Position numbers and translations under genes: made by a program. 35,302 bases of DNA from Kiritimatiellia bacterium (GTDB lineage: Bacteria; Verrucomicrobiota; Kiritimatiellia; CAIQIC01; Lenti-01): contig JAFXQI010000020.1 in NCBI GenBank assembly GCA_017527155.1, positions 1 through 35,302 on the forward strand, read 5' to 3'. Positions 15,547 to 33,790 of the stretch are shown here, piece by piece. Numbering within the stretch: the first letter of the stretch is position 1; every line of letters begins with the position of its first letter. The notes below the pieces were generated by a model that saw only the letters and a program-made list of their open reading frames with translations, had not been told where the DNA came from and made no database searches.

Positions 15547-17172
15547 ATGACCTCCTGGCCCCCATTCATCTCCGCCCTCTCCGCCCGCGTCCCCGGCCTC
15601 TCCGCCCCCGCCGACGGGCCCGACATCTCCGGCCTCGCCTACGACTCCCGCAAGGTCCGCCCCGGCGACCTCTTCATCGCCCTCCCCGGCGCCCGCGACG
15701 ACGGCGCCCGCTTCGTCCCAGACGCCATCCAGCGCGGTGCCGTCGCCGTCCTGCACCAAGGCGCCCCTTTGCCACACGGCATCCCTGAAATCCACGTCCT
15801 CGACGCCCGCGCCGCCATGGCCGCCGCCGCCGCCGTCTTTTACGGCGACCCCACGCGCGACCTCGACGTCGTCGGCGTCACCGGAACCAACGGCAAGACC
15901 ACCGTCGCCTTCATGGTCCGCCACCTGCTGGAAGCCGCCGGTACCCCCTGCGCCCTCGTCGGCACCGTCCGCTACGAATGGGCCGGCCGCTCCGTCGCCG
16001 CCGACCGCACCACCCCCGAAGCCCCCGACCTCCAGCGCATCTTCGCCGAAGCCCGCGCCGCCGGGCAGCGCGCCGCCGTCATGGAAGTCTCCTCCCAGGG
16101 CCTCTGCGCGCGCCGCCTCGACGGCGTCCGCTTCTCCGCCGCCGTCTTCACCAACCTCACGCCCGAACACCTCGACTACCACCGCGACATGGAACACTAC
16201 TATGCCGCCAAGCGTCTCCTCTTCGAGTCCTTGGAGCAGTTGCAAGATGGAGGTAGCCGTTGTCTGGTTTCCCGGCCTGGTGGGGCGAGCTCTCCGAGCG
16301 AGCCGTTCCCGCCTTCCATGCGGCTCGCACGGAGTGCTCGCCACACCATGTCGGGCCACAATGCTCCAGCCGCCGGCAACCGCCTTGCCGCCCCCGCCAT
16401 CGTCAACGCCGACGACCCCTACGGCCGCCGCCTCGCCGCCGAGCCCTGCCTCGCCGGGCGCCCCGTCCTCCGCTTCTCCATCGACGCTTCCTCCCCCGCC
16501 GAAGTCCGCGCCGGATCCGTCACCTGCGCTCCCGACGCCACCACCTTCCGCCTCCTCTCCCCGTGGGGCGATGCCGATGTCCGCCTTCCCCTCATCGGCC
16601 GCCACAACATCGCCAACGCCCTTGCCGCCGCCGCCGTCGCCGGAGCCCGCGGCATCCCCGTGGAAACCATCGCCGCCGCCCTGGCAACCATGCCGGGCGT
16701 CCCCGGACGCCTCGAACGCGTCGACGACCCCGTCGGCGGCCGCCACCTCTTCGTCGATTACGCCCACACCCCCGACGCCCTCGAAAACATCCTCCGCACC
16801 CTCCGCGAACTCGTCCGCCCGCCCGCCCGCCTCTGGTGCGTATTCGGCTGCGGCGGCGACCGCGACCCCACCAAGCGCCCCGTCATGGGCCGTATCGCCG
16901 CGGAGCTCGCCGACGCCACCGTCCTGACCAGCGACAACCCCCGCAACGAATCCCCCGACGCCATCCTCCGCGAAATCCGTTCCGGCATGGACACCCGTCC
17001 CCCGGTCGCCGTCATCCCCGACCGCCCCGCCGCCATCCGCGAAACCCTCCGCCTGGCCCGCCCCGGCGACCTCGTCGTCGTCGCCGGCAAAGGCCACGAA
17101 ACCTACCAGGAAGGCCCCCACGGCCACCGCATCCCCCTCGACGACCGCGCCCTCCTCCGCGCCGCCCTCTGA
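15547..17172 (+). CDS. murE: UDP-MurNAc-tripeptide synthetase with internal repeat insertion
   Basis: A 541-residue MurE, about 45 residues longer than usual. It adds the third amino acid to UDP-MurNAc-L-Ala-D-Glu. Motifs are GVTGTNGKTTVAF (ATP loop), TTPEAPDL, NLTPEHLDYH with the modified-lysine region YYAAKRLLFESL, VNADDPYGRR, DYAHTPDAL, and TSDNPRNESP. The DNPR form is associated with meso-diaminopimelate. Between FESL (about residue 228) and AIVNADD (about 284) lie some 55 residues, where relatives have roughly 5-10. This block is encoded by a palindromic repeat and its flanks, and the frame is preserved. GTG at 15532, overlapping the ftsI stop, is an alternative start. Confidence 0.94.
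   Translation: MTSWPPFISALSARVPGLSAPADGPDISGLAYDSRKVRPGDLFIALPGARDDGARFVPDAIQRGAVAVLHQGAPLPHGIPEIHVLDARAAMAAAAAVFYGDPTRDLDVVGVTGTNGKTTVAFMVRHLLEAAGTPCALVGTVRYEWAGRSVAADRTTPEAPDLQRIFAEARAAGQRAAVMEVSSQGLCARRLDGVRFSAAVFTNLTPEHLDYHRDMEHYYAAKRLLFESLEQLQDGGSRCLVSRPGGASSPSEPFPPSMRLARSARHTMSGHNAPAAGNRLAAPAIVNADDPYGRRLAAEPCLAGRPVLRFSIDASSPAEVRAGSVTCAPDATTFRLLSPWGDADVRLPLIGRHNIANALAAAAVAGARGIPVETIAAALATMPGVPGRLERVDDPVGGRHLFVDYAHTPDALENILRTLRELVRPPARLWCVFGCGGDRDPTKRPVMGRIAAELADATVLTSDNPRNESPDAILREIRSGMDTRPPVAVIPDRPAAIRETLRLARPGDLVVVAGKGHETYQEGPHGHRIPLDDRALLRAAL
16278..16348. repeat. Palindromic element inserted in murE
   Basis: Arm 16278-16305 pairs with 16321-16348 at 25 of 28 positions, leaving a 15-nt loop. 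The arms match the intergenic palindrome at 7924-7997. The element and its flanks are translated in frame as part of MurE. Confidence 0.88.
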
Positions 17173-21560: not shown

Positions 21561-24500
21561 CTACTCCTTTGCCCGGAAACTGAAGCGGAACACCCGCACT
21601 CCCTTCGTCTCGCCCAGCCACTCCACGGCACCCGTCTCCGCGTCGAAGCGGTAGCTCCCCGCCTCCGCCTTCTCCCAGGCCCACGCCTTGCCGTCCAGCT
21701 TCGTCGCCGTCCAGAGGTCGAACGGCGTCGTCCGGTACGCCGGATTCAGACCCACGCGCCACCCCGTCTCCGTCACCGACACCTCCTCCACCGCCGGCGC
21801 CTCGAAGTGCGCGCTTCCCGGATCCGTGAACACGGCCGCCACCGACGCCCCGGCCACGTGCGCCCCGTAGTCCTCCCCGTCCGCCTCGAACTCGTACGTC
21901 CCGTCCGGCAGCCAGAACCACAGCGACGAATCGCCCTGGTGCCCCATCCCCTCGTACCGGTACGTCCGCCCCCCGCCCAGATTCACGGCCACCACCACCG
22001 GCAGTTCCCCCGCATCCGTCGCCCACGGCACCTCCACCTCGTGCACCTCCGCCCCCGCCGCATCCACCGGCACTCCCGTCCCCTCCCGGCCGAATCCGCC
22101 GCCGATGTCCTCCCCGCCGTCGCTCCCCCGCGCCTTGACCGACCCGCCCGTGATGACCACCTCCCCCGCCGCCGGAGCCACCAGCCCGCCGCCGATGCCC
22201 GCCCCGTACTCGCCGCCGACCGCCTCCACCGTCCCCGCACGGACCTCCACCCGCCCGCTCTCCTGCAGCTTCCCGCCGCCGATGCCCGCCCCGCACTTGC
22301 CGCCGTATGCTTCCAACCGCCCCAGCCCCTGCAGTGACAGCACCGAATTCGTATCCACCCGAATCCCCGCACAGTCCTCGCCGCTCGCGATGAAGTTGTC
22401 ACCTTCCAACGTCACCTCCACCGACGCCCCTTCCAGCGCCACCGCGACCGCGTCCTTCGCATCCAGATCGACGACCAGGTTCGTCCACGTGTTCGTGAAG
22501 CTCCCGCCCGCGAACCGCACCGAATGCACCGAACTCGTCCCCGTCAGCACGTACCGTTCCGCCAGCCCCTCCACCGCGCTCCCGTCCGGCGCATACCCCG
22601 CCGTCACCCCGTTCGTCCCCACGACCACGCTCCCGTGCGTCACGTCCAGCCACAGCTCGCCGAACACCGCCCGAACCCACTTCGCGAACAGTTCCAGCGT
22701 GTCGGCGCTTGCAATCGTCTCCGCCGTCACCTCCGTCCCCGTCCCGTCCGGCCCGGTGAACCACCCGGCGAACGTCCACCCCAGCCGCTCCGGCACCGGC
22801 AGCGCATCGCCGTAGGGCTGGCCGATGACGACATCCATCCAGTCGTCCTCGCCCAGCGCGACCTGGATGGTCTCCGGCGGCACGCCGACCTTGTTCCACC
22901 AGGCCGGATCGGTCGCGATGGGCGCGTTGTAGTCGAAGACGATGGTCGCCGCCGCATCGATCCTCGCCCCGTCCGCCGCGTCATCGCGCACTTTTGCCCG
23001 GTAGGTCAGATACCCTTCCCCGCAGTGCGTCGCCGGGTCGTTCGGCGGCAGGAACCCGCTCCCGTCCTCCGGCCAGCCGAAGGTTCCCTTGGGATCGACG
23101 ATGCGCAGGTACCACTTGGCCTTCCCGGTCTCTTCGTCGTACTCCAGCACCGTCTTGACGCTCCGCCCCGTCCCGTTGGTCAGCGCGACGGCCGACCGCC
23201 CCCGCGCCAGCCCTTCCAGCCCGAGGTCCGTGTAGTCCCCGAAGGCGACCTCGCCCGCCTCGAACGTGCTCCAGTCCAGCGCCGGGTCCAGCGCCAGCTC
23301 GACCGTCACCTCCTGCGCGTCCGCCACGTCATCCCCGGCGTGGTTCTCGAAGAACACCGTGTAGTCCATCCACTGCCCGCGTTCCACCACGCGGTCCGCG
23401 CCCGTGCCCGCCGGCCCCCGCATCTCGTTCGGGTCCCACGACTGCTGGCTCTTGCCGTTTTCGCTGTCGTCGGACTGGTAGTCCGGCTTGTCGTCCTCGG
23501 GAATATCCTTCGGCTTGCCCACGTGGAGCGTCGCCTTCTTGCGGTAGGGGCCGGTGATGAAGTTCCCGTACGCTTTCAGCGAAACCGTGTAGGCTCCCTC
23601 CTTCAGGTACGTGTTGTGGGGATTGACCGCCGTGGAACCGGAGCCGTCCCCGAAGTCCCAGTCATAGCGCCGCGGTGCCTCGGAGAAGTCGAAGCCGGGG
23701 CCCTGGAAGTGCGCTCCCTTGGAGTTGTTGCTGAAGTCGAACCGCCCCGGTGCCATCGGGCACGAGAGCGGGCTGTAGGTGAAGTCGGGGGTGGGTCCGG
23801 TCAGCTTGATCAGGCTGGCCGAAATGTCGCCCACGTCGCCCTCGACGCCAAGCTTGAACTGGAACCAGGAAGGCAACCACTTTACATCCTCCCAATCGAT
23901 GAGATTGGCCTCCGCGTGGACTTTCGCGCCGACACTGATTCCGAGCGTGACGGGAGCGGCGGTCGAAGCGCGGATGGTGAGGTTGGCATATGGACCGAAA
24001 TCGGCACCGAAAGAAACCGTTTCGAACCATTTTAATTTGGCGCCCAGCGTGTATCCGATTTCGAGGCTCAACGCTCCCTCCACCTCCCCTTGCGGCGCGG
24101 AATAGATGGGCTGGATGCTACCAGGCGGCAGCCAATGGCTCTTTTCGCCCTCGTACCCTTCACGGCCGATGCAAATGGAAACCGTGCCGCCAAACGAGGC
24201 ATTCATTGAGCCGCGCAACGAAGCGGAGCCCTTGGCATAGACACCGGCGGTACCGTGCAAGGTCCACCCGGCAGGAAGGGGGATTCCTCCGGGAAATTCG
24301 ACACCTTCCCTGAAATTGCGGCTGTAGGAAGCGGAGCCTTCGAGTGAACACCACGCCTCCAGCGTCAAGGAACCTTTCAAGGCCCAATATCCGTAATTGC
24401 GGCCGTTTCGCATTTCCTGCACGAACTCGAAGCCCAGCCCCGGCGAAACATTCACTCCGCCGCGGAATCCGCCTTCGACAATCAGATTGTGGGGCTCCCG

Positions 24501-27500
24501 TGCGGAACGAGCGGCGGGATTGGCCTCTTCCCCCCCAAAATCAATCGGCACGTACACGCTCATCCCCACCTGCTGGTAGATGTCGCTCCAATCCGCATAT
24601 TCCGTCTCCAGAACCCACTTCCCGCCCTCCTTCGCGGCGGAGAGCACGCGGCGGCAGAACCACTCCTCGTTGCACTGGCCCATCAACACCATCCCGGCGG
24701 CGAGCGTCCCCGTCTCCGGTTCCCCTGCCAGCACGAGCCGCCCGTCGCTCTTTTCGAGGGCTTCCAGCGTTCCCGAGTTCGTCCCGAAGAGGATGGCTCC
24801 GTCCTGGAGGATGGTTTCGATTGCCTCTTCGACTCGCACGCAGTTTTCGTAGACGCTGGTGGTGCGCGTGCCGTCCGCCTCGGTCATGACGAGGGTGACG
24901 GTGTTCGTGCCCACGGAAGAGTAGGTCCAGGTCGGCTGCGCCTCCGTGCTGTCCACCACGCCGTCGGAGTCGAAGTCCCACTCCCAGGCGGTCGCGGAGG
25001 CGGCGCGCTCGGGATCGAGGTAGAGGAACGAGGTTTCGAGGCTCCCGAACCCGACCGACCGCGTGGGGAAGAAGAGCGGCCGCGCCGTGGAGACGAGCGC
25101 CACCACCACGTCGTCGCCCACCGCGAGAGTGACGGTGTGGTCGGGCGAGAAGGCCTCGAGCGAGTAATGCCGCACGTCGTAGGTGCCGGCGGGCAACCCG
25201 TCCAGGCTCCACGTCCCGTCCGTCTCCACGCCCACCTCGTAGGACACGCCTTCCTCCGTAATGGCCTGCACCGTCCCGTTCGTCGCGGGCGAGCCGCCGA
25301 ACGCGACCGTCCCGGAGACCCGCGCGCCCGCTTCCAGCACGAAGTCGGCCTCCAGTTCCCTCACCGTCCCGCCCAGCACGAGGTTCGAGGCGACGGCGCT
25401 GCACCACAGCCCCTGCGACTGGGCGCGGACCGTCCACGAGCCGTCGGCCAGCCCCGTGAACTCGTAGAACCCGAACCCGTCCGCCGGCACGGCGGCGGCG
25501 ACGGCGGTCTCTTCGCCATCGTACAGCGCCACCGTTCCGCCCGCCACGGCATTCCCCTCCCCGTCCAGAACGTGGCCCGAAATCCGCCCGCCCGGCACCG
25601 CGTGCAGTTCCAGCCCGTTCACGTCCGCCTGCGCGGCGACATCAACCTCGTTCGTGCTGTCCGCCGCCAGCACCGTCCCCGCATCCGGCAGGAACCGGTA
25701 CGCCCCGTCCGCCAGCCCCGCCAGCGAGAACCACCCATCCGAATCCGTCACCGCCGTCGCCGCCGCCCCGCCGTCCTCCGCCGCGATGGCCGAGATTCCC
25801 ACGCCCGCCAGCGGCGTCCGCGCCGCCGCGTCGACCAGCCGCCCGCTGATGGCGGCGCAGGGCTGCCCGTTGCGCTCCAGCAGCGACTGGGCCACGAGCG
25901 CGTGCAGGTCGGCCACCGCCGCGCCCCGCAGCGCCAGCCGCGTCGCCGCCGCGGCCACCGCCTCCCGGTAGCCCGCCACCCCGCCGAACGCCGGGAACGC
26001 CCCCGCCGCTTCCGCCTCCTCCATGTGCGCAAGACCCAGCCGGTAGCTCCCGAACGGCTGGAAGAAGAACGCCACCCGCCCCTCCTCGCCCGGCTTGAGC
26101 ACGCCCGCCGGGGCCGACGGCGCCACGCCGCCGATGTACAGCGCCGTCTCCACCGGCATCTCCCCCGCCGCCAACCCCAGCTTCGTCGTCGAATCCAGCC
26201 GCGACACCTTGAACAGCGGCATCGGCATCGCCGCATCCCCCGCATTCCGGTAGCACACGTGCGCCGTGAACACCCGCCCGTCGCGGATGCTTCCCGGCGT
26301 CTCCAGCCACGCCTCCAGCTTCGCCCCCTCCTTCACCGCGTAAATCTCCACCGCCCCCGCCAGCGCCGCCCCCGCCGCCGACACCTCCGCCGCGCCCGCC
26401 GCCGCCCCGTCCACGTCGAACGTCGCCAGCACGCGCGCGGCATCGATGCGTTCAACCGCCAACGCCTTGCGACCGCCGAGCGCCGCCGCCCCCGCGTCCA
26501 GCCCGCACCCGTAGAGCGTCAGCGCCGCCTCCCCCGCGTTCGGCACCCGCGAAGGCGAAACCGCCAGCAGCGCCGGCGACTCCGCCGATACCGTGACCTC
26601 CGCCTCCGCCGGCGCGCCGCTCCCGTTCGCGAGCGAAAGATACGCGCTCTCCCCGGCCTCCCGCGCCGGAAGCACGACCAGCCAGTTCCCGTCCGGCAGC
26701 GCCACCGCCGCCGTACCGCCGCCGTCCGCCGTCGGCATCGCCCCGTTCCCGGCCAGCACCGCGAGACTCCCCGCGCCCGCGCCGGAAACCCGCACCCAGC
26801 CGCCCGCCTCCGGCAGCCCCTCCAGCTCGTACCCCGCCGTCGCCCCTGCCCCCACCGCCACCGTGCGCGTCCCCGCCGACAGCGCGTCCAGCTTCACCTC
26901 CACCGTCCCCGCCGACCACGCCCGGTTGTTGCCGAGGTTCGCCTCGAAGAAATCCCTCGCCGGGTTCGCCTCCACCCCCACCTGCCACGCCCCCGCCGCC
27001 ACCGCCGGAATCCGCACCTTCGCCGTCATCCGCGCGCTCGCCCCCGGTTCCAGCCCGTACCCCTGCACCGCTTCCACCGCCTCCACCGACATCCCCGCCG
27101 TCCCCTCGTCCGCCCCGCGCAGGCGGATTGCGTCCCGCACCGTCCCCGACGCCACCGCCGTCCCCCGGTTCGTCACCACGTACGCCACCGTCACCTCCTC
27201 CCCCACCCGCGCGCTCGCCGGAACCGACACCGACAGCACCGCCACGTCCGCCATCGGCCCCGTCACCGTCCCCGGCACCTCGTAGATCCCGATGTCCGCG
27301 CACGCCCCCTCCGCGTTCGGCACCCCCGTGTTTTCCGCCGCCTTCACGTCCATCCGCGGCTGACCCCACGCATCCCGCTCCGGCGCGACCGAACTGTCCC
27401 CCGCGTCCACGCACGGCGAAGCCGCCGCAATGCGGAAATCCCCGCCATCCGCATCCACGAACTGCGGATCGCCCCACTTGTTCCCGTTGCTCCCCGCCTT

Positions 27501-28862
27501 CGAATACGACTGCGCCCCGTACCCCGCCGGATTCCAGAACACGCAATGCCGGAACGTCGAACCGTCCCCGCCCTGGTCCGTGAACGACTGGCATTCGCTG
27601 AACACGCAGTTCACCAATTCCTTGCCGCTCTGGCGCACCGCCGTCGTCAGCCCGTGGAACACGCAGTTGAACGCCTTGACCCGCCCGCTCCCGTAGTAGC
27701 CCAGTCCCAGCGATCCCTCCCGGATCACGCTGTTGCGCGCCGTGAACGTCCCGCTCGAATGCGCGTTCACGCTGTCGTACTTCATGAACGCGATCTCCCC
27801 GTTGTCGAACTCCACCGTCCCCCCGTACGCCTCCACCCCCCCGTAGTTCTCCGTCGAACTCGCGTACAGCACCGAGCAGTGGTCCATGATTGCCGTCCCC
27901 TGCACCCGGATCTGGTACCAGTCGCCGGGCTGCGGGCGGGTCGCGTCTCCGTCTCCATTGGTGTCGCCGCCGTGCTCGTCGTCCTTCACGGAGGTACACA
28001 CGATCGGCTCCGCGCGCGTCCCCTGGGCCACGAGCGTGGCCCCGGAGGCGACAGTGACGGAAAGGCCGCTACCCATCTTGATGATGGCACCGGGCGCGAT
28101 GGTCACGGTGACGCCCGACGCAATGGTGATGTTGCCGACGGCCGTGTAGACCCTGTGCCCCTGGAGCCGCGTGTCATACGAAAGCGTGCCGCCCAGGACC
28201 ACCGGCGCCGTGTACCGTTCCTCCGTCGCGTCGTCCTCCGTGATGCTCCCCGAGAGCGTGTACGCCCCCGTCGCGGGCACCGTCCCGTTCCCGTCCATCA
28301 TCGTGTCCCCGCCCACCGTGTCGTCCGCCACGTGCGTGAAAATAACCCCGTTCGCCGTGCAGCTCCCCCCGCTCGCCACACTCAATCCCGTCCCGTCCAT
28401 GAACTTCACCACCGCCCCGCTCTCGATTGTCAGCGCCGCCCCGCTCCCCACCGTCACCGCCGCCGTCACCAAATGAACCTTCCCCGCCGCCCACGTCTCG
28501 CTTCCCGAGATGGCCCCCGCGTGCAACACCACGTCATCCCCCAGCACCGTGAACGCCGCCTCCAGCGCCACGCCCCCCGACTCGTGCGTCAGCACGTGCA
28601 GCCCCGTCCCCTCCGGCACCCACTCCGCGACCTTCTCCTCCCCCGCCGCCGCCGTGGCGAGAACCGCCCCGTCCGCCGTGACCCTCGCCGCGGCTCCGTA
28701 CCACCGCCCCGAAAGCGCGATGCGTTCGGCGACCCCTTCGCTTGCAATCCGCGTCCCGTCCCGCGTATCCAGCACCATCGGCGCGGAATCCCCCGCCCAG
28801 ACGCCCGCCGCGCCCAGCACCGCCGCCGTCCAGACCAAAACCCTGCGCATTGCCTTGCTCAT
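21561..28862 (-). CDS. Giant secreted multidomain adhesin-like protein
   Basis: A 2,433-residue exported protein. Approximate order: signal peptide 1-23; right-handed beta-helix/repeat region 70-500; CARDB-like domain 535-655; carboxypeptidase-regulatory-like domains near 1005, 1095 and 1185; PKD domain near 1295 (WEWDFDSDG); a beta-rich region; second PKD near 1737 (YDWDFGDGSG); a DUF11-like segment 1820-1980; an InlB B-type repeat near 2027 (GWTFAGWFTG); and a Gly-rich region 2120-2225 with repeated GAGIGGG, like carbohydrate-binding Cthe_2159-type proteins. No sorting tail is visible. The start at 28862 follows GAGGAG by 6 nt. It probably binds glycans or surfaces; the actual ligand is unknown. 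Confidence 0.88.
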   Translation of the reverse strand: MSKAMRRVLVWTAAVLGAAGVWAGDSAPMVLDTRDGTRIASEGVAERIALSGRWYGAAARVTADGAVLATAAAGEEKVAEWVPEGTGLHVLTHESGGVALEAAFTVLGDDVVLHAGAISGSETWAAGKVHLVTAAVTVGSGAALTIESGAVVKFMDGTGLSVASGGSCTANGVIFTHVADDTVGGDTMMDGNGTVPATGAYTLSGSITEDDATEERYTAPVVLGGTLSYDTRLQGHRVYTAVGNITIASGVTVTIAPGAIIKMGSGLSVTVASGATLVAQGTRAEPIVCTSVKDDEHGGDTNGDGDATRPQPGDWYQIRVQGTAIMDHCSVLYASSTENYGGVEAYGGTVEFDNGEIAFMKYDSVNAHSSGTFTARNSVIREGSLGLGYYGSGRVKAFNCVFHGLTTAVRQSGKELVNCVFSECQSFTDQGGDGSTFRHCVFWNPAGYGAQSYSKAGSNGNKWGDPQFVDADGGDFRIAAASPCVDAGDSSVAPERDAWGQPRMDVKAAENTGVPNAEGACADIGIYEVPGTVTGPMADVAVLSVSVPASARVGEEVTVAYVVTNRGTAVASGTVRDAIRLRGADEGTAGMSVEAVEAVQGYGLEPGASARMTAKVRIPAVAAGAWQVGVEANPARDFFEANLGNNRAWSAGTVEVKLDALSAGTRTVAVGAGATAGYELEGLPEAGGWVRVSGAGAGSLAVLAGNGAMPTADGGGTAAVALPDGNWLVVLPAREAGESAYLSLANGSGAPAEAEVTVSAESPALLAVSPSRVPNAGEAALTLYGCGLDAGAAALGGRKALAVERIDAARVLATFDVDGAAAGAAEVSAAGAALAGAVEIYAVKEGAKLEAWLETPGSIRDGRVFTAHVCYRNAGDAAMPMPLFKVSRLDSTTKLGLAAGEMPVETALYIGGVAPSAPAGVLKPGEEGRVAFFFQPFGSYRLGLAHMEEAEAAGAFPAFGGVAGYREAVAAAATRLALRGAAVADLHALVAQSLLERNGQPCAAISGRLVDAAARTPLAGVGISAIAAEDGGAAATAVTDSDGWFSLAGLADGAYRFLPDAGTVLAADSTNEVDVAAQADVNGLELHAVPGGRISGHVLDGEGNAVAGGTVALYDGEETAVAAAVPADGFGFYEFTGLADGSWTVRAQSQGLWCSAVASNLVLGGTVRELEADFVLEAGARVSGTVAFGGSPATNGTVQAITEEGVSYEVGVETDGTWSLDGLPAGTYDVRHYSLEAFSPDHTVTLAVGDDVVVALVSTARPLFFPTRSVGFGSLETSFLYLDPERAASATAWEWDFDSDGVVDSTEAQPTWTYSSVGTNTVTLVMTEADGTRTTSVYENCVRVEEAIETILQDGAILFGTNSGTLEALEKSDGRLVLAGEPETGTLAAGMVLMGQCNEEWFCRRVLSAAKEGGKWVLETEYADWSDIYQQVGMSVYVPIDFGGEEANPAARSAREPHNLIVEGGFRGGVNVSPGLGFEFVQEMRNGRNYGYWALKGSLTLEAWCSLEGSASYSRNFREGVEFPGGIPLPAGWTLHGTAGVYAKGSASLRGSMNASFGGTVSICIGREGYEGEKSHWLPPGSIQPIYSAPQGEVEGALSLEIGYTLGAKLKWFETVSFGADFGPYANLTIRASTAAPVTLGISVGAKVHAEANLIDWEDVKWLPSWFQFKLGVEGDVGDISASLIKLTGPTPDFTYSPLSCPMAPGRFDFSNNSKGAHFQGPGFDFSEAPRRYDWDFGDGSGSTAVNPHNTYLKEGAYTVSLKAYGNFITGPYRKKATLHVGKPKDIPEDDKPDYQSDDSENGKSQQSWDPNEMRGPAGTGADRVVERGQWMDYTVFFENHAGDDVADAQEVTVELALDPALDWSTFEAGEVAFGDYTDLGLEGLARGRSAVALTNGTGRSVKTVLEYDEETGKAKWYLRIVDPKGTFGWPEDGSGFLPPNDPATHCGEGYLTYRAKVRDDAADGARIDAAATIVFDYNAPIATDPAWWNKVGVPPETIQVALGEDDWMDVVIGQPYGDALPVPERLGWTFAGWFTGPDGTGTEVTAETIASADTLELFAKWVRAVFGELWLDVTHGSVVVGTNGVTAGYAPDGSAVEGLAERYVLTGTSSVHSVRFAGGSFTNTWTNLVVDLDAKDAVAVALEGASVEVTLEGDNFIASGEDCAGIRVDTNSVLSLQGLGRLEAYGGKCGAGIGGGKLQESGRVEVRAGTVEAVGGEYGAGIGGGLVAPAAGEVVITGGSVKARGSDGGEDIGGGFGREGTGVPVDAAGAEVHEVEVPWATDAGELPVVVAVNLGGGRTYRYEGMGHQGDSSLWFWLPDGTYEFEADGEDYGAHVAGASVAAVFTDPGSAHFEAPAVEEVSVTETGWRVGLNPAYRTTPFDLWTATKLDGKAWAWEKAEAGSYRFDAETGAVEWLGETKGVRVFRFSFRAKE

Positions 28863-28863
28863 T

Positions 28864-31161
28864 TCATGCTCCTCTCGTCGTTTGAACAACCGTTTTCCGT
28901 TTGATTTGCGGACATTCCGCCCCGCTTTCCAAAAACAATTCCTTGCATTTCCCATCCCCTTCCGTACATTTGATGGCAGTTCGCGGTTGCATCTGCAATC
29001 GCCCGACGCCATCGAACAGGAGGCACCCCATGAAAACCATGACCATCCGCAACATCCCCGACGACGTGGCCACCGCCCTCGCAGAGCGCGCCCGCGAAAC
29101 CGGCCGCAGCATGAACGCCGCCGCCGTCGCCGCCCTTTCCATGGCCTTTTCCCCCGCCGTCCCCAAGCCCAAGCGCGACCTCTCCGAATTCGCCGGCATC
29201 ATGACCCCCGAAGAGGCGGCGGAATTCGAGCGGTTCATCGAAGAGGACTGCGAGCGCATCGACCCCGAAGAGTGGCCCGGCCTCCCTCCCTCCGCCTTTG
29301 CCCCCTGGCCCTCCCACCTTCCCCGGCCCGTGCCATGATCATCTGCATCGACACCAACGCCTACGCCAAATTCGTCACCGGCCATCCGGCCGTGCGCGCT
29401 CTTCTCGAAAACGCCGAAGAGGTCGTCATCCCCGCCGCCGTCGTCGCGGAATCCTATGACGGCTTCGCCAACGGGTCCAAATTCCAGCGGAACGTCGCCG
29501 CCTTCGAGGCCTTTCTGGCCCGTCCCGGCATCCGTGTCCTGCCCGCCGACAAGCGGATCGCCATCCGCTGGGGCCTCATCAGGACGGCGCTCCGCCGCAA
29601 GGGCCGCCCCATCCCCGTCAACGACATCTGGATTGCCGCCACCGCCTTCGAAACCGGTGCCGTCCTCCTTTCCTACGACCACCACTTCGACGCCATCGAA
29701 GGCCTCCCACGCCTCGCACCGTGAGATCGAGGATCCCGACAACGACCGCAACCTCTCCCGGTACGACTCCGTGGACGCCCTGTAAGCATCGTATCCCGCA
29801 CCGGTTTCCACGCCGACCTCTTCGGCCAATAGTCCCCGTCCCGCAAACAAAGGAGTACCCGCCATGCCCGCGCCCGACGCCCTTCCTCCCGGCGAAACCC
29901 GCACCGACGAAGAAGAAGCAAACGAAACCCCGAACGCCGAAACCGCCGCCACTCTCCAGCGCGTCTTGGACGGTACGGAACCGACATACGGTCCTTTCGA
30001 TTCGGTGGAAGAAATGTTCGCTTTCATCTTGAAGAACGACTGAAGGACCCCCACGCCGACCTCTTCGGCCTCTGACCGCCGCTGGGGGCGCGGGCGTCCC
30101 GCCCGCGATGGGGGGGGGCTTCCAGCCGCGTTTCCCGCCCCCTTTTGCCATCCCCTGCCCCCTGCCCCCTGTCCCCTCTCCCTCCCCCGCCGCCACCCCA
30201 GCGTCTCCCCCTGTTGCAGGAACGCCGTCAGCGCCGTCATCCGCGCCTGGTAGGTCCCCTCGTCCCAGCCCCCCTCTGCAAGCAGCCGCCCGTACAGCGC
30301 GCTCTTGCACCGAAACCGTTCCAGACTCGCCTTCGCCGCCCGCACCCGGCCCGGGAACACCCGCATTCCCAGGAAATCCATCCCGTGCCGCGTCCGGTTC
30401 AGGTACGGCTCCCCCTTGAACGCCAGTCCCAGCTCCCGGCCCAGCAGATCCCCCACCCCGTCCCGCACCGCCTTCAGCACCTCCCGGTCGTCGCTCCAGA
30501 ACACGAAATCGTCCATGTACCGCACATATCCCCCCACCCGTGTTCCGCCCCTCTCCCGCCAGCGGTCCAGCGGATCCAGAAACAAATTCGCCAGATGCTG
30601 GCTCGTCAGGTTCCCGATGGGCAGCCCCCGCCCCGGCACCGTCTCGTACGTCCCCACGATCCGCATCAGCCACTCCCGCACCGCCCGGTCCTTGATCCGC
30701 CGTTCCAGCATCGCCTCCAGCCCCTCGTGCGGGATGCTGTCGAAATACTTCCGCACGTCGCACTTCAGGAACCACCCATGCCGTCCCGCCAGCTCCCGCG
30801 CCCGCCGCACCGCCGCCAGCTGACCCTTCCCCTTGCGGCACGCGAACGAGTCCGGCACCAGCCACCGTTCCACCCACGGCTCCAGCACGTTCATCAGCCC
30901 GTGGTGCAGCACCCGTTCCCGGAACGCCGCCGCGCAGATCGTTCGTTCCTTCGGCTCGTGGATCGTGAACCGCCGGTACTCCCCCACCGGATAGCTCCCC
31001 TCCAGCAACCCCTCACGCAGCGCCGCCAGCTCCGCATCCAGGTTCGCCGCGTACGCCCGCTGGTCCGCCCGCGCCCGCTTCCCCCGGCTCGCCTTCCAGA
31101 ACGCCAGCCGCAGGTTCTCCGGCTCGCACACCGCCTCCATCAGATGCCCTGCCCGCCTCAT
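28864..31161 (-). CDS. DGR reverse transcriptase; core 30180-31161, frame open to 28864
   Basis: A reverse transcriptase of the diversity-generating retroelement class. Residues 1-325 show the whole domain: motif A FLKCDVRKYFDS (about 131-142), the DGR signature LPIGNLTSQHLANLFL (about 180-195), catalytic YMDD in GGYVRYMDDFVFW (about 210-222), and the end of the domain at LTAFLQQGETLGWRR. It copies the template RNA with errors at adenines. The ATG at 31161 overlaps the stop of the HRDC gene (ATGA). No in-frame stop occurs until 28864, so as sequenced the product would be 765 residues. The last ~430 residues are largely antisense to toxin-antitoxin genes and are not credible. A one-base loss in the 9-nt homopolymer at 30110-30118 would end the protein at 30024 (378 residues). 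Confidence 0.9.
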   Translation of the reverse strand: MRRAGHLMEAVCEPENLRLAFWKASRGKRARADQRAYAANLDAELAALREGLLEGSYPVGEYRRFTIHEPKERTICAAAFRERVLHHGLMNVLEPWVERWLVPDSFACRKGKGQLAAVRRARELAGRHGWFLKCDVRKYFDSIPHEGLEAMLERRIKDRAVREWLMRIVGTYETVPGRGLPIGNLTSQHLANLFLDPLDRWRERGGTRVGGYVRYMDDFVFWSDDREVLKAVRDGVGDLLGRELGLAFKGEPYLNRTRHGMDFLGMRVFPGRVRAAKASLERFRCKSALYGRLLAEGGWDEGTYQARMTALTAFLQQGETLGWRRGRERGQGAGGRGWQKGAGNAAGSPPPSRAGRPRPQRRSEAEEVGVGVLQSFFKMKANISSTESKGPYVGSVPSKTRWRVAAVSAFGVSFASSSSVRVSPGGRASGAGMAGTPLFAGRGLLAEEVGVETGAGYDAYRASTESYRERLRSLSGSSISRCEAWEAFDGVEVVVVGKEDGTGFEGGGGNPDVVDGDGAALAAERRPDEAPADGDPLVGGQDTDAGTGQKGLEGGDVPLEFGPVGEAVIGFRDDGGGDDDLFGVFEKSAHGRMAGDEFGVGVGVDADDHGTGRGRWEGQGAKAEGGRPGHSSGSMRSQSSSMNRSNSAASSGVMMPANSERSRLGLGTAGEKAMERAATAAAFMLRPVSRARSARAVATSSGMLRMVMVFMGCLLFDGVGRLQMQPRTAIKCTEGDGKCKELFLESGAECPQIKRKTVVQTTRGA
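28943..28970 (+). promoter_or_regulatory. Promoter of VapBC-like operon
   Basis: TTGCAT (28943-28948), a 16-nt spacer and TACATT (28965-28970). The antitoxin start is at 29030, so this transcript has a leader of about 50 nt with an AGGAGG site, unlike the leaderless genes nearby. Confidence 0.6.
29030..29338 (+). CDS. Ribbon-helix-helix antitoxin, VapB/FitA-like
   Basis: A 102-residue protein. The N-terminus (MTIRNIPDDVATALAERARETGRS) has the strand-helix-helix pattern of FitA/VapB antitoxins, which bind the operon's operator and, through an acidic C-terminal tail, block the PIN toxin. The tail here (about 60-90) is rich in Glu and Asp, as expected. AGGAGG lies 6 nt before the ATG. The stop overlaps the toxin start (ATGA). 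The gene lies antisense to the formal extension of the DGR reverse-transcriptase frame. Confidence 0.82.
   Translation: MKTMTIRNIPDDVATALAERARETGRSMNAAAVAALSMAFSPAVPKPKRDLSEFAGIMTPEEAAEFERFIEEDCERIDPEEWPGLPPSAFAPWPSHLPRPVP
29335..29724 (+). CDS. PIN-domain toxin, VapC-like
   Basis: A 129-residue PIN-domain ribonuclease, the usual VapC length. Metal-binding acidic residues are seen in IDTNAYAKF (Asp near residue 5), in the central AVVAES, and in the C-terminal VNDIWIAATAFETG and LLSYDHHFDAIEGL. VapC toxins cut tRNA or rRNA when the antitoxin is degraded. Translation is coupled to the antitoxin through the ATGA overlap. The pair is probably functional. It stands at the edge of the retroelement, next to older toxin-antitoxin debris. 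Confidence 0.87.
   Translation: MIICIDTNAYAKFVTGHPAVRALLENAEEVVIPAAVVAESYDGFANGSKFQRNVAAFEAFLARPGIRVLPADKRIAIRWGLIRTALRRKGRPIPVNDIWIAATAFETGAVLLSYDHHFDAIEGLPRLAP
29723..29785 (+). pseudogene. Relic of antitoxin C-terminus
   Basis: Frame EIEDPDNDRNLSRYDSVDAL-stop directly after vapC resembles the C-terminal end of RelB/DinJ-type antitoxins, with the SV(D/E) ending also seen in the small gene at 29864. No start or N-terminal half is present in frame. Confidence 0.4.
29797..29832 (+). pseudogene. Relic of toxin C-terminus (YafQ-like)
   Basis: The frame RTGFHADLFGQ-stop resembles the conserved end of YafQ/RelE-type toxins (Gly-x-His-x-x-Leu-Phe). It follows the antitoxin relic by 11 nt. The toxin body is missing. 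The same CACGCCGACCTCTTCGGCC string recurs at 30052. Confidence 0.4.
29864..30043 (+). CDS. Small acidic protein, orphan antitoxin-like
   Basis: A 59-residue protein with an acidic, probably disordered N-terminus and the C-terminal motif YGPFDSVEEMFAFILKND, which resembles the toxin-binding end of RelB/DinJ-type antitoxins. AAAGGAG precedes the ATG by 8 nt, so it is likely translated. A scar of a toxin C-terminus follows directly, so this appears to be an antitoxin that has lost both its DNA-binding part and its toxin. It overlaps, in antisense, the extension of the reverse-transcriptase frame. Confidence 0.55.
   Translation: MPAPDALPPGETRTDEEEANETPNAETAATLQRVLDGTEPTYGPFDSVEEMFAFILKND
30049..30075 (+). 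pseudogene. Second relic of toxin C-terminus
   Basis: The frame PHADLFGL-stop repeats the toxin-end motif of 29797-29832 and again comes directly after an antitoxin-like gene, which points to a deletion of the toxin body. Confidence 0.4.
30078..30136. repeat. GGGGGCGCGGGCGTCCCGCCCGCG-type repeat (positions as given)
   Basis: GCGGGCG and CGCCCGC pair across a short loop at about 30090-30106. The sequence that follows (GGGGCTTCCAGCCGCGTTTCCCG) is shared with 31195-31230 and 33711-33740. The 9-G tract at 30110-30118 lies inside the repeat. Confidence 0.6.
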
Positions 31162-31802
31162 GCCCCACCCTCCGCTGGGGGCGCCCCCCTGGGGGATGCG
31201 CCTTCCAGCCGCGTTCCCGATGGGACAAGGGCGTCCCCGCCCTTGCAGCTGGGGGATGCGGCTTCCTGCCGCGTCTCTTCTTCCCTTCCCACGCGGCAGG
31301 ATGCCGCATCCCCCAAGTCCTCCCTCTCCACCGCTCCACTCGTCACTCGTCTCTCGTCACTCGTCACTGCCGCCCCCAGCAGCCTCTCCCCGTACTTCGC
31401 CACCCGCGCCTCCCCGAACCCCTCGATCCGCCCCAAATCCGCCTTCGTCGGCCGTTCCGCCTTCGCCAGTTGCGCCATCTGCGCGTCCGTCATCACCACG
31501 AACGGCTTCACCCCGTCCGCCTCCGCGATCTCCATCCGCGCCTTCCGCAACCGCACGAACCGGTCGAACGCCGCCGGCTCCAGCACCTCCCGGTAATCCA
31601 CCTTCCCCCCCCGGAACCCCGCCGCCGGCACCGGCGCCGACGGCCCCGCCCCCTCCATCCACTCCACGCAGAACGCCCACCCGTTCGGGAACACCGCCCG
31701 CTCCACCGCCAGCGTCCGGTGACCCCGGATGAACGCATCCATCGCCTCCTGCGCCGCCTCCCCGCCCGTGTGCGGAACGAAAAACGTCCGGTACAGCGTC
31801 AT
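31158..31802 (-). CDS. HRDC-domain DGR accessory protein
   Basis: A 214-residue protein. Residues about 68-142 form an HRDC domain (landmarks FDRFVRLRKARMEIAEADG, VVMTDAQMAQLAKAERP and DLGRIEGFGEARVAKYGE), a helical nucleic-acid-binding module known as an accessory in some retroelements of this type, in place of Avd. It probably assists the reverse transcriptase in handling template RNA or target DNA. Residues after about 146 are encoded by intergenic repeats, including a 24-bp-arm palindrome, so the native C-terminus was shorter. The stop overlaps the RT start. A structured T6-ending segment and a 9-G tract lie just upstream of the ATG. Confidence 0.83.
   Translation of the reverse strand: MTLYRTFFVPHTGGEAAQEAMDAFIRGHRTLAVERAVFPNGWAFCVEWMEGAGPSAPVPAAGFRGGKVDYREVLEPAAFDRFVRLRKARMEIAEADGVKPFVVMTDAQMAQLAKAERPTKADLGRIEGFGEARVAKYGERLLGAAVTSDERRVTSGAVEREDLGDAASCRVGREEETRQEAASPSCKGGDALVPSGTRLEGASPRGAPPAEGGA
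31165..31250. repeat. TGGGGGATGCGCCTTCCAGCC-like repeat in HRDC tail
   Basis: Bases 31189-31242 (landmarks GGGGGATGCG, TTCCAGCCGCG and ACAAGGGCG) closely match 33709-33765 upstream of the DGR target. Here they are translated in frame as the last residues of the HRDC protein. Confidence 0.65.
31251..31314. repeat. 24-bp-arm palindrome inside the HRDC gene
   Basis: Arm 31251-31274 pairs with 31291-31314 with a single mismatch, and the loop is 16 nt. It encodes about residues 163-184 of the HRDC protein. Confidence 0.85.
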
Positions 31803-31828
31803 CTCACGCCCTCGCCCCCCCCCTGCGC

Positions 31829-31891
31829 AAAAAACGGCCCGCCCGCAGCCTTCCCGCGGACTCCGTCCGCCGTACCAACGGCGGGCGGGCC
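31829..31891 (-). terminator. Branched hairpin plus T6 downstream of the DGR template
   Basis: On the minus strand GGCCCGCCCGC (31891-31881) pairs perfectly with GCGGGCGGGCC (31846-31836). Inside are a 6-bp hairpin at 31870-31856 and a smaller one at about 31882-31869. One base later comes T6 (31834-31829). It could end the template RNA or serve as the structured spacer that primes reverse transcription. Confidence 0.65.
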
Positions 31892-31970
31892 TCGCTTTTC
31901 GCCACACCGCCTCGCGGCGGCGCGGACCGGATGGCGCCGGGGACTGCACGATTCTCCGAATCCTGCGGTG

Positions 31971-32106
31971 CTGCGGAGCAACAGAGGCGCAAGCCGATGT
32001 TGTTGTTCCTGTTCGACGGGTTGTTGTTGTTGCGGTTCGCGGAGCGGCAGTTCTGCGCGTTGTTGTTCCAGCTGCCGCCACGTTGCACGCGGTTCGAACC
32101 CGACGC
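31971..32106 (-). repeat. DGR template repeat (TR)
   Basis: A 136-bp non-coding template that matches the variable repeat at 32270-32405. It is full of AAC triplets; read in the target frame it would give runs such as GSWNNN and NNNNPSNRNNN. The last 29 bp in its own direction (31999-31971) are identical to the variable repeat, as is a 21-bp stretch at the opposite end (32106-32086). There are 33 adenines in the 107-bp mutable part, 21 of them changed in the variable repeat. It lies between target and HRDC gene. Confidence 0.96.
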
Positions 32107-32258
32107 TTCTCGCCGCCACCCAAATCCTTCCCCCCGCTCGCTCCGCTCCGCGTCCCTCATCGGGCGCCGCGCTCCGCGCTCGCGCCCTCTTCGGCACGCT
32201 CCGCTCCGCTCGCTCGCCACCATCCTCTGCCCTGCCTGCTTGCCTGTGGATTCGGAGT

Positions 32259-33551
32259 TCATCGCAGTCCTGCGGAGCAACAGAGGCGCAAGCCGATGGA
32301 GTTGTACCTGCCCGACGGGGCGTAGTCGCAGCGGTCCGCGGAGCGGCAGTCCCGCGCGTAGCCGCCCCAGCCGCCGCCACGTAGCACGCGGTTCGAACCC
32401 GACGCAGGCCCCACGGGGTCGGTGACGGCATCGGCGGTGACGGAAGCCAGCCAATCCAGGCACCACTCCCAGACGTTCCCGTGCATGTCGTACAGCCCCC
32501 ACGCATTCGGCATATAGCTCCCCACGGTCGTGTGCCCGCTGGTGTACCCGCCCTTCCCGTCGCTTTGGTTGTAATAGTACCGCCCAACCTCCGCCATGTT
32601 CGTGCAACTGCTTGTCCCCGTCAGATTCTTCCCGCTGTTGAGCGCCGTCGTCGTCCCTGCCCGGCACGCATACTCCCACTGTGCCTCCGTCGGCAAATCC
32701 CACGCGAACCCGCCCGCCCGCGCCCGGAGCTTCCCCATGAAGCTCGCCGCGTCCACCTCCGAAGACGACGGCCAGTTGTACGTCGAAGAATTTCCGCGAA
32801 TCGTGTTCCACGAAACATATTCCACCGGACGCATGTCTCCCGTGTAAGATGACGGATTGCTCCCCATCACCAGCTCCCACTGCTTCTGCGTCACCTCGAA
32901 CACCCCCATGTAGAACGGCTGCGTGATCGTCACCTCGTGCCGGATTTCGTTGTAGGAAGATGAATCCCCGGACCGCCCCAGCTCATCCGACGGACTGCCC
33001 ATCGTGTACGTCCCCGGCATGATCCGCCGGAGCACGAGCTTCGTCGTCTTGAACTCGTCCGACCACCCGCCCTGCGGCTCCGCGCCGAGGAAACTCACCG
33101 GATAGACCGCCCCGTCCCCGCTCCCCGCCGAGAGGTCGAGTACCAGATACATCCCCTCGCCCGCCAGCGCCTGCACCTCCACCGTCACCGCATCGGCGAC
33201 CGTCCCCGCCGCATCCTTCCCCGCGTCCCAGACCAGCCGCCCCTTGCCCCCCGGCAGCTCCTGCGCCTTCACGACCAGTTCCTCCCCGAACTCCCCCCCC
33301 TCCAGCTTCACCGTCCGCACCGGCAACGCCTTCCCCGTCCCCTCGTCCCGCGCGCTCGCGTACAGCGTCAGGTTCGTCCCCGGCTCGCTGCACGCCACCT
33401 CGAAGTCGATGTCCACCAGCCCGTTCCACGGATACCGCTGCCGCGCCGTCACGTTCGTCACCGTCACCTCCGCGGCGGCCGCCGCCCATGTGCACGCCCC
33501 CCACGCCGCGAGAGCCAAACCCGTCCGCCACGCCATCGTCCAACCCTTCAT
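32259..33551 (-). CDS. DGR target protein, secreted FGE-sulfatase fold
   Basis: A 430-residue exported protein. The signal peptide covers residues about 1-26 (GLALAAWGACTWAAAAAE). An Ig-like beta domain follows (about 27-130), and then a formylglycine-generating-enzyme/sulfatase-modifying domain (about 160-428) with PGTYTMGSP, FEVTQKQWE, LPTEAQWEYACRAGT and YDMHGNVWEWCLDW. This C-type-lectin-like fold is a common scaffold for retroelement-diversified binding proteins. The variable repeat covers about the last 48 codons and ends 11 bp before the stop. The ATG at 33551 is chosen for its AAAGGA site and signal peptide. It probably displays a variable ligand-binding face; enzyme activity is unlikely. 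Confidence 0.93.
   Translation of the reverse strand: MKGWTMAWRTGLALAAWGACTWAAAAAEVTVTNVTARQRYPWNGLVDIDFEVACSEPGTNLTLYASARDEGTGKALPVRTVKLEGGEFGEELVVKAQELPGGKGRLVWDAGKDAAGTVADAVTVEVQALAGEGMYLVLDLSAGSGDGAVYPVSFLGAEPQGGWSDEFKTTKLVLRRIMPGTYTMGSPSDELGRSGDSSSYNEIRHEVTITQPFYMGVFEVTQKQWELVMGSNPSSYTGDMRPVEYVSWNTIRGNSSTYNWPSSSEVDAASFMGKLRARAGGFAWDLPTEAQWEYACRAGTTTALNSGKNLTGTSSCTNMAEVGRYYYNQSDGKGGYTSGHTTVGSYMPNAWGLYDMHGNVWEWCLDWLASVTADAVTDPVGPASGSNRVLRGGGWGGYARDCRSADRCDYAPSGRYNSIGLRLCCSAGLR
32270..32405 (-). repeat. DGR variable repeat (VR)
   Basis: The copy of the template that is rewritten by the retroelement. It differs from the template at 21 of 136 positions, all of them template adenines on the coding strand. 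The invariant last 29 bp (32298-32270) are the likely initiation-of-homing site. Protein changes include asparagine to Gly, Tyr, Asp, Cys, Ala and Ser; 15 residues differ. Confidence 0.96.
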
Positions 33552-33678: not shown

Positions 33679-33790
33679 CCTGGGGGCGCGGGCGTCCCGC
33701 CCGCGCTGGGGGATGCGCCTTCCAGCCGCGTTCCCGATGGGGCAAGGGCGCCCCCGCCCTTGATGCAAGGCCGGGGCGGCCTTGCCACAG
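33679..33790. repeat. Intergenic palindromic repeat cluster
   Basis: GGCGCGGGCG and CGCCCGCGC pair near 33684-33707. The rest matches the repeat at 31189-31242 (landmarks GGGGGATGCG, TTCCAGCCGCG and CAAGGGCG). It lies between the divergent target gene and hypD. Together with the promoters on either side it accounts for most of the gene-free stretch 33552-33860. Confidence 0.65.

Follow-up and report, generated by a model that had tools for sequence, protein, structure and literature searches.

An HRDC-type diversity-generating retroelement from a Kiritimatiellia bacterium and a candidate RNA guide beside its template repeat

The locus and its genes

The window, by which is meant the whole stretch of 35,302 nucleotides that was analysed, is an entire contig (C42) of the 3.23-Mb genome of a Kiritimatiellia bacterium. 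Between 28.8 and 33.6 kb of this contig lie, all on the minus strand, the parts of a diversity-generating retroelement (DGR), which are listed here in order along that strand:

32260..33551 (-), variable (target) protein gene, about 430 aa, Pfam PF03781 (E 1.6e-38)
32270..32405 (-), variable repeat (VR), 136 nt, with 21 differences from the template repeat, all at template A
32248..32269 (-), target-side element directly 3' of the VR, GACTGCGATGAACTCCGAATCC, complementary to the segment 3' of the template repeat (anchored score 22)
31971..32106 (-), template repeat (TR), 136 nt, present in only one copy in the genome
31942..31963 (-), proposed guide segment of the TR RNA, 3' of the TR, GGATTCGGAGAATCGTGCAGTC, pairing with 32248-32269
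31828..31930 (-), conserved 3' domain of the TR RNA, limits approximate, two helices and a GGTA(G) motif
31158..31802 (-), accessory protein, HRDC, in the place of Avd, Pfam HRDC PF00570 (E 3.8e-16)
30169..31161 (-), reverse transcriptase (RT) of DGR type, PF00078, with the motifs YMDD and LPIGNLTSQ

The variable protein is made up of an N-terminal signal-like segment and an FGE-sulfatase domain, which has a C-type-lectin-like fold, and the VR forms its C-terminus. The closest solved structure is TvpA, the variable protein of the Treponema denticola DGR (2y3c, E 2e-26). The target is one predicted surface-type protein gene with an apparently rewritten end, and the genome contains 15 FGE-sulfatase matches. 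The RT belongs to the DGR clade (RVT_1), its closest solved structure being the RT of the Bordetella phage BPP-1 DGR (8ub7, E 1e-40), and no second RT was found in the genome. Its frame (31161..28864, minus strand) has no stop at the conserved RT end and stays open to 28864 for some 435 further codons, running through a palindromic repeat; in an alignment the tail past about residue 330 is without counterpart in relatives.

The accessory gene lies beside the RT gene, with its stop overlapping the RT start (ATGA). An AlphaFold model of its product (pLDDT 89) has an N-terminal beta-alpha-beta-beta domain followed by a RecQ-type HRDC domain, which is matched by the RecQ HRDC structure 2rhf in Foldseek. 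An HMM for Avd gave no match at the locus, where the HRDC protein is found instead. Going by its genes and repeats, then, the locus is an HRDC-type DGR.

The template and variable repeats

The initial annotation had described two gapless 136-bp repeats with 21 mismatches, each on a template adenine, and an ungapped minus-strand alignment of 31971-32106 with 32270-32405 reproduces this exactly (21/21). The changes go to G, C and T as claimed, with 13 A>G, 6 A>T and 2 A>C, and they extend from repeat position 23 to position 107. The annotation also held that chance placement would be extremely unlikely, which is borne out by a probability of 9.5e-16 for 21 random mismatches all falling on the 35 A among 136 positions. 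Its statement that no other base had changed in the 107-nt mutable part stands as well (0/74), but its count of 69 non-A positions was wrong, since the first 107 nt of the TR contain 33 A and 74 non-A (36 C, 29 G and 9 T). Fifteen amino acids differ, mostly at template Asn codons as had been stated: 12 Asn (AAC), 2 Gln and 1 Ser. An alignment with substitutions at non-adenine template positions had been named as what would overturn the pattern; running 6 nt beyond the repeat end does add two non-A mismatches, and these are located outside the TR and VR, in the flanking element.

The reading of the repeats as TR and VR is also correct in its context, given the flanking DGR-type RT, the position of the VR at the C-terminus of a TvpA-like protein and relatives with the same adenine-only pattern, which is seen in five related DGRs from the same family of bacteria. 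The element looks like a working device, and its repeats carry the record that RT-dependent mutagenic homing from TR to VR would leave.

HRDC-type and Avd-type loci

A first set of loci was collected by RT searches of related genomes, GTDB genomes and viral contigs, with BPP-1 as the positive control, and was scanned with a TR/VR finder that tolerates changes at template A. TR/VR pairs were found in 129 of 169 scanned sequences, BPP-1 included. The accessory genes divide the DGRs into two nearly exclusive groups, HRDC being found in 85 loci, Avd in 67 and both in one. An HRDC-like protein starts just after the TR in four loci (L369, L245, L368 and L056).

The groups also differ in layout. The TR comes before the RT in 44 of 46 Avd-type loci and after it in 59 of 61 HRDC-type loci, the two exceptions being the window and L078 (Lentisphaerae), where the TR precedes the HRDC gene. 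In the nearest relative of the window by RT (L033, 75% identity), the RT is followed directly by a homologous TR whose 3' flank closely resembles that of the window, and the gene order of the window therefore looks rearranged. The layouts suggest that the TR-HRDC neighbourhood is able to sit on either side of the RT.

Complementarity of the repeat flanks

A repeat search returns an inverted repeat at 31941-31963 and 32248-32270, which corresponds to the 3' flanks of the TR and the VR. In the window, 22 nt found 3' of the TR are the inverted complement of sequence 3' of the VR, anchored at the repeat ends, and translation of the variable protein stops at a codon within the target-side element. 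The pairing in the window begins 7 nt past the TR and is broken by two gaps and a single mismatch, besides one C>T wobble; the predicted duplex has an energy of -33 kcal/mol. None of 304 cross pairs reached the score of 22, and elsewhere in the contig 16 of 10,025 places did. Six close relatives (L056, L369, L376, L377, L379 and L380) have a form like that of the window, beginning directly after the VR, and in two other loci (L034 and L037) the complementarity is of the same kind and stronger.

Three loci gave rise to the idea of flank pairing, for which the remaining loci and two later sets served as tests, the held-out loci being drawn from Verrucomicrobiota and viral contigs only. Mismatched (cross) pairs of TR and VR flanks served as the null, with a threshold score of at least 20, and the final exact run of 10 was taken as the anchor of the flank, automatic extension of the repeat boundary into the flank having blurred the signal. 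In the first set 31 of 62 HRDC-type loci reached the threshold, as did only 1.1% of the cross pairs (Mann-Whitney, 5e-24), and a comparison of the flanks in the same orientation gave only 2 of 62. The first held-out set gave 10 of 18 HRDC-type loci at 20 or above, and in the second all 8 scored at least 18, five of them at least 20. For all non-redundant HRDC-type loci the figure is 43 of 84, where the cross pairs gave 0.62% (p 2e-36). The remaining 41 of the 84 fall below 20, some of them keeping only shortened ends of the element, for instance a VR flank GTCAGTGAGC against a TR flank CTCA...CTGAC. Anchored pairing was seen in none of the Avd-type loci, either in the first set (0/57) or in the held-out set (0/16), and the comparison shows the predicted pairing to be restricted to HRDC-type DGRs. 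A literature search, with a scope limited to papers outside subscription, found no description of TR/VR flank pairing, and its novelty is provisional.

The median paired span is 2-29 in the TR flank and 2-30 in the VR flank, and the pairing is therefore anchored at the repeat ends. Where a locus has several VRs, their flanks agree over some 32 nt and diverge beyond that (0.94 then 0.28 in L116, 0.94 then 0.34 in L088, and 0.88 then 0.16 in L114). The element is retained beside extra VRs even when these lie on the opposite strand (L093) or downstream of the TR (L088, L114).

Direction of the wobble changes

The way in which the VR flanks have changed is informative about the nature of the pairing. 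Among 28 discovery loci, changes that keep a wobble pair (C>T, A>G) were found at 38 of 313 positions, against 1 of 336 for wobble-breaking transitions (p 8e-12), and cross-pair controls have no such bias (52/749 against 52/945). The held-out loci have few changes in all, with 4 wobble-keeping and 3 wobble-breaking, and do not by themselves confirm the bias; the combined counts come to 42 and 4. Because G.U/G.T wobble pairs are kept in this way, base-pairing of the TR and VR 3' flanks itself appears to be under selection in HRDC-type DGRs. The direction of the wobble also points to the strands involved, the TR sense strand, as RNA, pairing with the VR sense strand; pairing of the cDNA with the VR antisense strand predicts the opposite direction, which is not seen. 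A mobile cassette with plain inverted repeats at its termini is likewise contradicted, both by the wobble-type changes and by the element beside extra VRs.

A conserved RNA domain beyond the guide

An alignment fold of 15 relatives, the window included, reveals a conserved RNA domain 3' of the guide, with two helices and a GGTAG motif, in which 19 of 21 pairs have two-sided changes. The guide lies between the TR and this domain and is unpaired in the consensus fold. In the window the last helix of the domain is followed by TTTTTT, an arrangement that resembles an intrinsic terminator, at which the RNA could stop. A covariance model built from these relatives places the domain directly 3' of the TR in 53 of 70 other HRDC-type loci, with E values down to 5e-19, and Rfam 15 has no match to the TR 3' flank of the window even at E<=1.

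The covariance model also matches TR-RT spacers of some Avd-type loci (e.g. viral L209 and L186), more weakly and mostly in the last, GGTAG helix, and hence the domain is probably a general DGR spacer RNA. It represents a candidate RNA family common to DGRs, and the guide is probably what HRDC-type DGRs have in addition, between the TR and the general spacer domain. The spacer of BPP-1 is known to recruit both RT and Avd (PMC12875486).

What the pairing may do

How the cDNA of a DGR enters the VR, and how the target is found, are incompletely understood (PMC12875486). What, then, might a selected pairing of the two flanks contribute? The account that we favour, and hold to be probable, is that in this HRDC-type DGR a guide in the TR RNA, 3' of the TR, pairs beside the VR, and we infer that it thereby anchors the complex at its target and spares the TR. 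The TR RNA would be held by the RT and the HRDC protein, the guide of 20-30 nt would anchor this complex beside the VR, on opened DNA or on nascent mRNA, and the A-mutated cDNA of the TR would then replace the VR. At the TR the sense strand carries the sequence of the guide itself rather than its complement, so that the TR would not be targeted. A comparable job is done in Avd-type DGRs by a local DNA hairpin 3' of the VR, and HRDC-type DGRs would use RNA-target pairing for it. The pairing would be compatible with either DNA or mRNA as the partner, and with a role in target recognition, regulation or priming.

Several other explanations have to be set against this one. Plain divergence of a repeat or an assembly artefact, with no DGR at all, has a negligible probability and is already refuted by the adenine-only differences together with the RT, the accessory protein, the target fold and the relatives; nothing was found in its support. 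That both flanks are only protein-recognised hairpins in opposite orientation, without selected mutual pairing, we regard as highly improbable. A hairpin 3' of the VR is known in BPP-1 (PMC3240598), and agrees with the Avd-type VR flanks, 46% of which have a z below -2 within 65 nt; TR flanks also fold weakly (z about -0.8 to -1.1), and there is one compensatory pair between the TR flanks of the window and L033. Because of these weak hairpins part of the flank conservation may serve folding of the TR RNA. HRDC-type VR flanks, however, form no local hairpin beyond chance when compared with shuffled sequence (mean z -0.2 to -0.4), whereas the joint TR/VR flanks have a predicted duplex z of -7.1. 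The VR flank of the window likewise folds no better than shuffled sequence (-3.9 kcal/mol, z +0.5), and so has nothing like the hairpin or cruciform of the Avd type.

The remaining alternatives accept the pairing but give it another purpose. Both pairing strands are sense strands and so both flanks can be RNA, which would allow the TR RNA to pair with the mRNA of the variable protein at its 3' end, in a regulatory or RNA-processing role rather than in target recognition. This accords with the G.U wobble, which is classical of RNA pairing, and with the TR and variable gene usually lying in one operon-like cluster, but the element is kept beside extra VRs that lie on the opposite strand or downstream of the TR, and Avd-type DGRs with similar clusters lack it, making this reading rather unlikely. 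A special form of the guide idea is snap-back target-primed reverse transcription, in which a nicked VR sense strand would pair with the guide, its 3' end positioned at the TR boundary to prime cDNA on the TR; folding back on the VR, this cDNA would supply the new antisense strand. The VR side of most HRDC-type loci that carry the element terminates in TGAGC, and this pairs with the final TR base and the opening bases of the guide (CAG|CTCA); agreement peaks at guide positions 0-10 (0.77-0.90) and is lower beyond (0.61-0.81), and conservation of the VR flank stops at that TGAGC end. Against this, the cDNA of BPP-1 is primed from the spacer of its own TR RNA (PMC12875486), and in the window and its nearest relatives the pairing stops short of the TR boundary, and we give priming of this kind only a small chance.

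With anchoring by the guide as the favoured reading, a wider proposal is that HRDC-type DGRs as a whole are RNA-guided, with a guide beside every target providing target choice and self-avoidance of the TR, and perhaps priming of the cDNA by the sense strand of the target itself, so that HRDC and Avd would mark two ways of finding a target; this we consider evenly balanced. Selected RNA-target pairing that goes with HRDC and not with Avd would offer a concrete answer for a large and hardly studied part of the DGRs and would explain the sparing of the TR. DGR targets could also become programmable through editing of the short guide beside the TR.

Relation to known systems

The basic layout of the window is ordinary and already known from Treponema denticola (PMC4891356), whose DGR shares with it the order target-TR-HRDC-RT, the overlap of the HRDC and RT genes, a variable protein of FGE-sulfatase type and TR/VR differences at A only, and differs in host phylum. 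The HRDC accessory gene was described in that system (PMC4891356), and HRDC as a DGR accessory is also noted in PMC10053308. The text of the T. denticola paper makes no mention of a hairpin or inverted repeat (PMC4891356).

With BPP-1 (Mtd, Avd, bRT) the window shares the design of A-specific mutagenic homing, the RT family (36% identity) and a structured RNA spacer 3' of the TR (PMC12875486). In BPP-1 an element directly 3' of the VR is needed for efficient homing (PMC3240598, PMC12875486), although there it is a local hairpin/cruciform, with Avd in place of HRDC. Anchored complementarity of the TR and VR flanks is absent from BPP-1, whose best match has offsets of 37-56 and 27-43. The RT, HRDC protein, TR-RNA domain and flank pairing are shared with the HRDC-type chromosomal DGRs of Kiritimatiellae, other Verrucomicrobiota, Bacteroidota, Planctomycetota and Desulfobacterota, from which the window differs in the position of its TR. 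In group II introns an RT-bound RNA locates its DNA target through base pairing by exon-binding sites. The parallel is one of analogy, not of membership, the window having neither ribozyme nor intron.

Other sequences in the genome

A second target for the TR of the window was sought in the genome, and the candidate genes on C109 (73% over 121 nt) and C19 were rejected, as they differ at many non-A positions and lack a match to the guide. A viral origin of the element was likewise set aside, there being no DNA match among phage records and no relative of the HRDC protein in the viral contigs searched. Two FGE-sulfatase genes of the same genome, L007 (G000:C109, about 16494-16640) and L008 (G000:C45), end in AGAACCCTGTCAGAATAA-like flanks, which resemble the VR flank of another DGR (L267), AACCCTGTCAAATAATG. 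These genes may be orphan targets of a DGR that is absent from the genome.

The palindrome-rich repeat of 25 nt, TGGGGGATGCGNCTTCCNGCCGCGT, occurs in the window at 31190-31315, 33707-33731 and 30105-30131. It lies in the 3' tail of the frame for the HRDC protein and close to where the RT ends; the genome has 13 copies with at most two mismatches and a reversed control gave 0. On the plus strand, the frames at 29456-29785 and 29721-30032 resemble, on visual inspection, a PIN-toxin/antitoxin pair with the motif PVNDIWIAA, and as listed they have no match in Pfam. Finally, a minus-strand frame of 2483 aa (21561-29012) contains PKD, carboxypeptidase-regulatory-like, beta-helix and CARDB domains, and is by prediction a large surface or secreted protein adjoining the DGR.
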